In this document: positions 17,580 to 19,320 of the stretch, piece after piece
Layout: every line of letters begins with the position of its first letter
Numbering within the stretch: position 1 is the stretch's first letter
Virus record (IMG/VR): IMGVR_UViG_3300025102_000132
Location: 1-33,458 of that record
From: a virus
Reading direction: 5' to 3' (one strand)
DNA: 33,458 nucleotides
The notes under the pieces: generated by a model
What the model was told of the DNA's origin: nothing
What the model saw: the letters and a program-made list of their open reading frames with translations, nothing else
The model's database searches: none
Position numbers and translations under genes: made by a program

Positions 17580-17594
17580 ACAAAAGGCAACATT

Positions 17595-18392
17595 TTGAAT
17601 GTGGATTCTGCCAAAGAATTACCTACTGTCCTCTCATTTTGTAGCGGATATGGTGGCCTCGAAAGAGGACTTGACCTTGCCGGATTTGAACATCGAGTCA
17701 TCGCTTATGTCGAGATCGAAGCCTACGCAATTGCGAACTTGGCAAACAAGATGGAAAGAGGGGAGTTATTACCAGCACCTGTTTGGTCGAATCTTAAAAC
17801 CCTGCCAGTGGAGCCTTTTCGAGACAGAGTTGACCTCATTACTGGAGGCTACCCATGTCAGCCGTTTAGTGCAGCAGGGGAAAGAAAAGGAGACAAAGAC
17901 CCAAGACACCTATGGCCTCACATACGGAGACACATCGAAGCAATTAGACCTGTTCGAGTCTTCTTTGAAAACGTCGAAGGACACATCAGCCTTGGACTCA
18001 GAGAAGTCATTAGCGACCTGGAAAGCCTTGGTTATAAAACAACGTGGGGAATATTCTCAGCGCGTGAAGTTGGCGCTCCGCACCAAAGAAAGCGAGTCTA
18101 TATTTTGGCGAACTCCATCAGCAAGCGATGCAGAGGGGGGGCATATGAGTCCGATGGGAGGGAAATGGAAGTTGAGCGATCAGGTTCATTACAGTTACAC
18201 GAATGGCCTAATCGACCTGATAAGTTACAACAAAACAGGGAAATATCGACAAGACATCAACCCGTATTTTCTAGAGAAATTGATGGGTGTGCCAATAGGG
18301 TGGACAGAATTAGGATGTTGGGAAACGGAATTGTGCCACAGACAGCCGCAAAAGCATGGACCACGCTCACCAAAAGGATTGGAGGAAGTTAA
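17595..18392 (+). CDS. DNA (cytosine-5) methyltransferase
   Basis: A 265-residue C5 methyltransferase. Its motifs are in order: I SFCSGYGGLERG (14-25, AdoMet binding), IV GGYPCQPFSAAG with the nucleophile Cys88, VI FENVEG (124-129), VIII QRKRVYIL (164-171) and X RIRMLGNGIVPQTAAKAW (238-255). The target-recognition stretch between VIII and X is only about 70 residues, so the enzyme is short for its class. The start is TTG at 17595 or GTG at 17601; a purine-rich AAAAGG is at 17582-17587. No restriction partner is adjacent, so it probably protects phage DNA or changes gene expression. The whole gene is overlapped by another open frame. Confidence 0.92.
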   Translation: MNVDSAKELPTVLSFCSGYGGLERGLDLAGFEHRVIAYVEIEAYAIANLANKMERGELLPAPVWSNLKTLPVEPFRDRVDLITGGYPCQPFSAAGERKGDKDPRHLWPHIRRHIEAIRPVRVFFENVEGHISLGLREVISDLESLGYKTTWGIFSAREVGAPHQRKRVYILANSISKRCRGGAYESDGREMEVERSGSLQLHEWPNRPDKLQQNREISTRHQPVFSREIDGCANRVDRIRMLGNGIVPQTAAKAWTTLTKRIGGS

Positions 18393-18417
18393 TGGGCATC
18401 AAACGAGAGGCTTGTGA
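17599..18417 (+). CDS. Overprinted protein in the +1 frame of the methyltransferase gene (candidate)
   Basis: A 272-codon frame runs through and slightly beyond the methyltransferase gene. It starts with ATG at 17599, four bases after the methyltransferase TTG, so both could use one ribosome binding site. It has a QLDLFESSLKTSKDTS block (115-130), DSEKSLATWK (133-142), QRGEYSQRVK (148-157), WRTPSASDAEGG (170-181) and INPYFLEKLMGVPIGWTEL (220-238). I remember proteins with this series of motifs as phage hypothetical proteins, and LMGxPxGWTxL at the end of some phage methyltransferases. Because part of the similarity may be a shadow of conserved methyltransferase motifs, coding is not proven. 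Confidence 0.5.
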   Translation: MWILPKNYLLSSHFVADMVASKEDLTLPDLNIESSLMSRSKPTQLRTWQTRWKEGSYYQHLFGRILKPCQWSLFETELTSLLEATHVSRLVQQGKEKETKTQDTYGLTYGDTSKQLDLFESSLKTSKDTSALDSEKSLATWKALVIKQRGEYSQRVKLALRTKESESIFWRTPSASDAEGGHMSPMGGKWKLSDQVHYSYTNGLIDLISYNKTGKYRQDINPYFLEKLMGVPIGWTELGCWETELCHRQPQKHGPRSPKGLEEVNGHQTRGL

Positions 18418-18781
18418 TAAGTGGTTTAGCGATGTTATCAGACTAAAAGCTAACCATACGTGTGAGTGTTGCCATAACCAGGATAGGCAGATGCATTGCT
18501 GTCATATCTATGGGAGGGGCGCAAAATCAGTGAGGTGGTCAATTGATAACGCGCTTTGTATGTGCAGCTATTGCCACAGATACTTTACTGAAAACCCCAT
18601 TGCATTCACAAATTTCTTACAAGTTTATTTAGGAAAAGGGCATATGGAAATGCTTAACGAGAAGTGGCGCGTTATTTTAAAAACTAACAAGCTGCTTAGA
18701 AAGGAGATCGCCAAACACTACAGGGAAGAGCATAAGAAAATGGTTGATGATGTTGGGTATGAGCCTGTGAGTTACAACTGA
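18392..18781 (+). CDS. HNH endonuclease-like protein (NinG/HNH type)
   Basis: A 129-residue protein with a zinc-binding HNH pattern: CECC (24-27), HCCHIYGRGAKSVRWSIDNA with His38 (35-54), and CMCSYCHRYF (56-65) providing the second Cys pair and a final His. The start is the ATG at 18392, which overlaps the methyltransferase stop and follows GGAGGA (18381-18386). A longer frame from 18356 is rejected. Such proteins lie in nin regions upstream of Q in temperate phages and may process recombination intermediates. A homing function is unlikely since no intron or intein is seen. The end overlaps the Q start. Confidence 0.7.
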   Translation: MGIKREACDKWFSDVIRLKANHTCECCHNQDRQMHCCHIYGRGAKSVRWSIDNALCMCSYCHRYFTENPIAFTNFLQVYLGKGHMEMLNEKWRVILKTNKLLRKEIAKHYREEHKKMVDDVGYEPVSYN

Positions 18782-19320
18782 TGGAAATTTTATCAATGTT
18801 AACTCCTGGATCACCACCAATCGATGGGGATACTATACGATCAACTGCGAAAAGTAGGATTTCTGCAGGTGATGTTGCCTCATGTCTCTGTCGTGTCGAT
18901 AGACACACCTATCTGTATGCGCTAAGTAAATACTGTTTGGATAATAGCTCAAGGGACGAGCTAAACGCGTTGTCAGTGAAGTATGCAACAACCCGACAAT
19001 ACAGCAAGCAAGCAACGGAGCCAGATGATGTGGTAGAGCGCCTAGCCCTTGCATCGTTGTGTTATTCAATATCACCTAGTCGATGCTCTTACTGTGGCGG
19101 CACAGGTGAGAGAAAAGTGGACTCTAAAGTTGTTGGTTGCACAGTATGTAGTGGTTCAGGCAACTCTGATATGTCTGTAAGGAAGTTAGCAGATGTGCTT
19201 GGTGTTGGTCGGTGGAGGGCAAAAAAGGTGTGGATGCAAAGATTTCAGTCATTAGTGTCAGACTATCAGATACGAGATGATGCGCTTTATTTAGCTATTA
19301 AACAGGGCTTACAGGATTGA
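18781..19320 (+). CDS. Q-type antitermination protein
   Basis: A 179-residue protein with a zinc-finger pair CSYCGGTGER (Cys102, Cys105) and CTVCSGSGN (Cys120, Cys123), followed by a helix-turn-helix (MSVRKLADVLGVGRWRAKKV, about 131-150). CxxCxGtG twice plus a C-terminal HTH is the signature of phage Q antiterminators. It is the last gene of the rightward early operon, and the next rightward genes are the late genes behind an intrinsic terminator at 20129-20150. It should load onto RNA polymerase at the late promoter and allow read-through. Confidence 0.82.
   Translation: MEILSMLTPGSPPIDGDTIRSTAKSRISAGDVASCLCRVDRHTYLYALSKYCLDNSSRDELNALSVKYATTRQYSKQATEPDDVVERLALASLCYSISPSRCSYCGGTGERKVDSKVVGCTVCSGSGNSDMSVRKLADVLGVGRWRAKKVWMQRFQSLVSDYQIRDDALYLAIKQGLQD

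Follow-up and report, generated by a model that had tools for sequence, protein, structure and literature searches.

Two overlapping reading frames of a phage locus as the probable subunits of an M.EcoHK31I-type C5-cytosine methyltransferase

The window analysed here, a stretch of 33,458 nucleotides from a virus record (IMGVR_UViG_3300025102_000132), contains two long reading frames that occupy the same DNA on the + strand, where the parts of the locus described below are also located. This locus raises the question of whether both frames encode proteins and, if so, what the second protein contributes. Frame A extends from TTG 17595 to TAA 18390–18392 (265 codons, or 263 if GTG 17601 is used), and frame B, which is +1 relative to frame A, is open for 272 codons from ATG 17599 to 18417; these coordinates agree with a preliminary description of the locus, in which the ATG was placed four bases after the TTG and frame B was said to extend past the methyltransferase stop. 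A TGA in frame B (17596–17598) lies immediately 5′ of the ATG, so that no earlier start is possible in this frame. Genes for an integrase, a replication initiation protein, a terminase, a portal protein, a major head protein and a tail spike were recognized in the window, which is probably derived from a temperate tailed phage. We propose, with a probability of about 0.83, that a heterodimeric C5-cytosine methyltransferase of the M.EcoHK31I type is encoded here, its two chains being read from overlapping frames started a few bases apart; translation, assembly, target reading and the mechanism of the start are inferred. The preliminary description did not include the enzyme part that frame B supplies and frame A lacks, the M.EcoHK31I precedent or the twin start.

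Frame A (17595–18392) corresponds to the catalytic chain, referred to below as alpha. It matches PF00145 over residues 12–179 (E 2.4e-32) as well as phrog_363, and the catalytic domain of its AlphaFold model matches M.HaeIII and M.HhaI. Motif I (FCSGYGG, AdoMet binding; 17637–17657) is conserved in alignment A1, motif IV (GYPCQPFS, containing the catalytic Cys; 17847–17870) has a PCQPFS that is invariant in alignments A1 and A4, and motif VI (ENV; 17967–17975) is likewise invariant in both; these are followed by motif VIII (QRKR; 18084–18095), with R165, K166 and R167 invariant in A1, and by motif X (LGNGIVPQTAA; 18318–18350), with LGN..VP conserved in A1 and A4. Frame A and its relatives therefore meet the criterion for a C5-cytosine methyltransferase, namely the presence of motifs I, IV with PCQ, VI with ENV, VIII and X. 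The Pfam alignment of frame A ends with motif VIII, and in the alignment of relatives no motif IX was found in this frame, where only a linker of variable length separates motifs VIII and X; alpha residues 185–230 are unstructured in the AlphaFold model. The criterion for a single-chain enzyme, one chain that contains motif IX and a target-recognition domain between VIII and X, is thus not met. The earlier statement that frame A keeps all methyltransferase motifs holds for I, IV, VI, VIII and X but not for IX, and a motif-IX-like sequence is found in frame B instead. In Mycobacterium phage Seabastian (locus L016, 1198–1957), a frame change divides alpha into two genes, each annotated “DNA methylase”; the gene may be defective, or the split may stem from an error in sequencing.

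The product of frame B (17599–18417), referred to below as beta, is a protein of 272 aa that contains a candidate target-recognition module and a putative motif IX. The segment INPYFLEKLMGVPIGWTEL (18256–18312), in which P222, E226, M229, G230 and G234 are invariant among 52 beta proteins, is read as motif IX because its counterpart in a phage gene (L313), KLSSRFVEWMMGLPDGWV, is located in frame between motifs VIII and X and within a single PF00145 match (residues 11–301); this assignment rests on a short motif and its position. When the beta module and motif IX were grafted into alpha, the Pfam score rose by 3 to 7 bits and that of TIGR00675 by approximately 0, and the alignments did not reach motif IX. 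Upstream of motif IX lies a “WRTP” module (18106–18255), which is encoded by the same DNA as the alpha linker. Relatives have a variable number of modules beginning WPTP at this place, and the DNA that is read as WPTP in frame B is read as LADS in frame A. From their position and variability, the modules probably form the target-recognition domain; constraint in the module region is about equal in the two frames, so that alpha may also contribute to target recognition. A survey for module exchange identified 47 pairs of genes with similar module regions and an alpha identity below 60%, and among the 15 of these pairs that were listed, only L004/L009 involved the module, the others involving the motif IX–X segment; module shuffling between distant genes is therefore only suggested. 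As a separate observation, several genes (L272, L274, L289, L305, L306, L326 and others) have motif IX in the alpha frame, yet their +1 frame is open through motif VIII, contains 2–5 LPTP modules and ends close to motif IX. These genes apparently represent another division of the enzyme, in which only the modules would be placed in the second frame.

The division of motifs seen here has a precedent in M.EcoHK31I, the beta subunit of which is short and is read, from an internal start, in another frame of the alpha gene. The window locus resembles this system in that beta is located in an alternative (+1) frame of the alpha gene, and the criterion of overlap is met. According to a review (PMC3404938), M.EcoHK31I (YGGCCR; Lee, Kam and Shaw 1995) consists of two polypeptides, a small one with motif IX alone and a large one with motifs I–VIII and X; the criterion defined by this division is also met, with I–VIII and X in the alpha of the window and IX in beta. 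The two systems differ in that beta here starts at the start of alpha and covers the whole gene, with 272 aa in the window and 232–628 aa in relatives. They may also differ in the location of the target-recognition domain, which is assigned to the large subunit of EcoHK31I in the same review (PMC3404938), whereas the module pattern found here points to beta. M.AquI is another naturally split C5 methyltransferase, but its small subunit contains motifs IX and X (PMC3404938), whereas in the window motif X is in frame A (18318–18350) and the chains overlap in different frames, and the AquI-type criterion is thus not met. The absence of motif IX from frame A, together with the presence of motif IX and WPTP modules in frame B, is the basis for the two-subunit reading of the M.EcoHK31I type. 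In the absence of biochemical data, frame B is likely to encode the beta subunit of such a two-subunit enzyme.

A scan for frame B identified 517 relatives in viral contigs and at least 254 in bacterial and archaeal genomes; the genome counts were obtained with the pattern LNPx[WF][VA]ExLM and are lower bounds. Among the matches listed, beta overlaps an alpha in its +1 frame at all 80 genome loci that were kept, and these loci include Alphaproteobacteria, Verrucomicrobia, Bacteroidetes, Firmicutes and a MAG assigned to an archaeon. Judged by these predicted pairs, hundreds of phages and bacteria share a conserved alpha/beta arrangement. Frame-B homologues outside the overlap, which had been named earlier as a means of deciding the matter, were found only in part: no full-length beta away from an alpha gene was present among the 80 loci listed (80/80 overlap), but other C5 methyltransferases do contain the motif-IX sequence in frame. 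Most of the records seen annotate one subunit only, often alpha (as in Acinetobacter and Leptospira), and sometimes both are annotated. In the Sphingomonas paeninsulae plasmid NZ_CP032828.1 (L179, 1126–2217), it is beta that is annotated, as a hypothetical protein, and the alpha frame beneath it is unannotated.

The alternative that survives best is that frame B is real but encodes an independent overprinted phage protein with its own function, which is not a subunit of the methyltransferase. Several properties of beta are compatible with this: its N-terminal 110 residues do not resemble anything of known function, a Pfam search with beta matched no family, and no full-length non-overlapping homologue was found. 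A sequence search of beta against the PDB likewise gave no match. Its AlphaFold model, built from 52 aligned sequences, is of low confidence (pLDDT 57) and had no match among PDB structures in a Foldseek search; the best-predicted part is a long helix formed by residues 134–165 (17998–18093; pLDDT 76–91 over residues 131–160). Against independence, however, beta contains the very motif that is missing from alpha, its residues 76–190 match phrog_1008, labelled “DNA methyltransferase” (E 4.8e-17), it is accompanied by alpha at every one of the genome loci mentioned above, and M.EcoHK31I provides a precedent for the division. An independent function is thus considered unlikely.

A more sceptical explanation is that no protein is made from frame B, which would be a conserved shadow kept open merely by the methyltransferase protein and its codon bias. 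The finding that full-length frame B was seen only over an alpha gene (80 genome loci) is what this explanation would lead one to expect. Openness by chance had initially been judged from a simple count (61/64 to the power 272), and this estimate was improved upon by shuffling the synonymous codons of frame A, which leaves both the protein and its codon usage unchanged. When the window gene was shuffled 20,000 times, frame B contained a mean of 8.35 stops and a minimum of 2, whereas none is observed. Stop codons in frame B of close relatives, which would have refuted a second protein, were sought in 66 distinct genes fetched with frame A alone and hence chosen blind to frame B: codons 10–200 contain none, whereas about 271 are expected from synonymous shuffles. 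The result was the same when codons 10–90 (0 vs. 157.5 expected; lowest shuffle, 135) and 90–200 (0 vs. 113.6; lowest shuffle, 89) were considered separately. The third frame of the same genes, used as a control, contains 281 and 270 stops in these two regions, with 240.9 and 308.6 expected, and thus behaves as the shuffles predict. A larger set of 138 genes shows the same openness of frame B, with stops becoming frequent only from about motif IX onwards, where beta should end. The relatives are not phylogenetically independent. Distant overlap genes with a later beta start, examined as a separate set, have 68 frame-B stops within their first 80 codons (78.2 expected) and 2 in the remainder (39.7 expected); the early region is thus filled with stops where beta has not yet started, indicating that a methyltransferase sequence alone does not keep the +1 frame open. 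As a single-chain control for openness, 29 genes in which motif IX is in frame were also considered; they were dropped because the +1 frame of most of them is open as well, carrying LPTP modules and ending near motif IX, which makes the set mixed.

Selection on frame B at the protein level was also evident from the conservation of frame A at sites where its own protein imposes no constraint. The constraint at synonymous sites of frame A that had been proposed as a test proved to be strong: at 80–90% protein identity, divergence at fourfold sites of frame A is 0.233, compared with 0.547 in the genes that flank it on the same contigs, and at 70–80% identity the values are 0.301 and 0.594, respectively. 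The lowest divergence at fourfold sites (0.13) was found in codons 115–145. The similarity of the frame-B proteins exceeds that of synonymous shuffles by more than does the similarity of the third frame, chiefly in codons 5–65 and 115–176, and the excess is small in codons 90–115. The start codon of frame B is conserved among relatives, and the frame-B segments that had been likened to conserved phage proteins recur in them (alignment A2). The preliminary description had left open whether this is a real overprinted protein or a conserved shadow. The stop counts and the synonymous-site constraint support the former: hundreds of stops are predicted even by shuffles in which protein and codon usage are retained, the fourfold sites of frame A are constrained, relatives with a later beta start do carry stops in the early region, and the frame-B start codon is conserved. 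The shadow explanation is accordingly left with almost no probability, and is regarded as refuted by the shuffle and synonymous-site tests, so far as comparisons of sequences can refute it. Although no expression data exist, frame B very likely encodes a real protein under selection.

The start sequence in the window is TTGAATGTGG, and it contains a twin start, TTGAATGTG (17595–17603), in which TTG 17595 or GTG 17601 would serve alpha and ATG 17599 would serve beta; the corresponding sequence in most close relatives is ATGTG. A weak Shine-Dalgarno sequence, AAGG (17584–17587), is located at a DtoStart of 12 to the TTG, 16 to the ATG and 18 to the GTG; it suits the TTG better than the ATG or GTG, so that alpha may start at the TTG in the window. 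This start is not certain, since the frame-A GTG at the position of 17601 is the only possible start in many relatives. Most close relatives have the overlapping starts ATGTGG (ATG for beta and GTG for alpha) behind one Shine-Dalgarno sequence. ATGTG, with the ATG in frame B and the GTG in frame A, was found in 40 of the 66 distinct relatives obtained by frame A; in 22 of the 40, frame A read upstream meets a stop before any further ATG, GTG or TTG, and 18 have no alternative start in either frame. Many of the remaining relatives have equivalent starts (GTGTGG, TTGTGG or ATGACATGG), and relatives in Rhizobiales have NTGAATG, with the starts 4 bases apart. At L204, L218, L250, L266 and similar Rhizobiales loci, the start region is ATGAATGTGG, with two ATG in different frames 4 bases apart. 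The paired starts are no more than 6 bases apart in each case, including the window. Among 83 distinct ATGTG leaders, a Shine-Dalgarno sequence of at least 4 bases was found in 56, and the DtoStart to the ATG is 12, 13 or 14 in 41. The criterion for a twin start, a single Shine-Dalgarno sequence followed by two starts that differ in frame and are only a few bases apart, is thus met by the relatives and by the TTGAATGTG of the window. A single long protein produced by programmed frameshifting, in which ribosomes would leave frame A for B once motif VIII is read and return to it ahead of motif X, would account for the order I–VIII (A), IX (B) and X (A), which is that of a single-chain enzyme, but it requires two opposite shifts (shift signals were not searched for) and has no need of the conserved start codon and N-terminus that beta possesses; as beta has its own start, this explanation was set aside as scarcely credible.

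In E. coli, AUGUG at a DtoStart of 12/14 starts both frames, and a longer spacing favours the AUG (Kohl et al., 2022; PMC9841429); the overlapping starts of most close relatives of the window gene have the spacing for which dual initiation was thus reported. In that paper, Thermus rnpA-rpmH (AUGGAUG) is the only earlier bacterial case cited, and by 2022 ambiguous initiation had been described only for this gene pair and a few E. coli sites (PMC9841429). The locus described here resembles both the Thermus case and the E. coli AUGUG/GUGUG sites in that one Shine-Dalgarno sequence precedes two start codons that lie a few bases from each other and differ in frame, and the ATGAATG of the Rhizobiales relatives has the same spacing as the Thermus AUGGAUG. 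It differs from them in that the site is conserved across many lineages and in that both products appear to be subunits of one enzyme, whereas the alternative products in E. coli have not been shown to be functional (PMC9841429). Initiation of both subunits at one ambiguous site is probable, being fairly likely in the relatives and less certain in the window, although its use by ribosomes is inferred. Paenibacillus phages (Lily gp62/gp63, “g62 internal gene”) have the same alpha/beta overlap as the window, with both frames annotated, but beta of phage Lily starts about 61 codons inside alpha and there is no twin start.

Under the preferred reading, a heterodimeric enzyme of the M.EcoHK31I type, ribosomes would load at one leader and start at TTG 17595/GTG 17601 for alpha or at ATG 17599 for beta; with one leader and two nearby starts, both subunits would be made from one message in a ratio set by the Shine-Dalgarno spacing. 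Alpha would provide AdoMet binding, the catalytic Cys and motifs I–VIII and X, and motif IX, which alpha lacks, would come from beta, as would the WPTP module, the most likely reader of the target. Alpha and beta would then assemble into one enzyme, which would mark phage or host DNA at a site that is unknown. Protein-level selection on frame B, the division of the motifs between the frames and the conserved paired starts are supported directly by the present data. Enzymes of this kind have been described before; what is new is that the overlap runs from start to end, that the twin start is conserved and that the distribution is broad. Bacteria have few long overlaps on one strand in which both proteins are strongly supported, and the conservation of the present overlap in phages and diverse bacterial phyla makes selection on two frames directly measurable. 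The locus also offers natural test material for ambiguous translation initiation. A broader proposal, that these genes form an old, widespread and nearly fully overlapping class in which methyltransferase subunits arise from one ambiguous start and both frames read the specificity modules (as LADS in alpha and as WPTP in beta), is possible but tentative, and we do not consider it the likelier case; if the modules do function in both frames, the gain or swap of one DNA module would change both subunits at once. In most of the records seen one of the subunits is unlisted, which points to a systematic annotation gap, and C5 methyltransferases that are taken to be complete would consequently lack a part of the enzyme if cloned alone.

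The next gene encodes a NinG/Rap-like HNH nuclease (18392–18781; phrog_5034, E 7.3e-17) and overlaps the end of beta. Its first ATG is at 18356, but the alternative ATG at 18392, in a TAATG that overlaps the alpha stop, is the likely start, because it follows a GGAGG and overlaps the alpha TAA. The region 18781–19320 encodes a small protein that resembles anti-termination protein Q and has a DnaJ-like zinc motif, both on weak matches.
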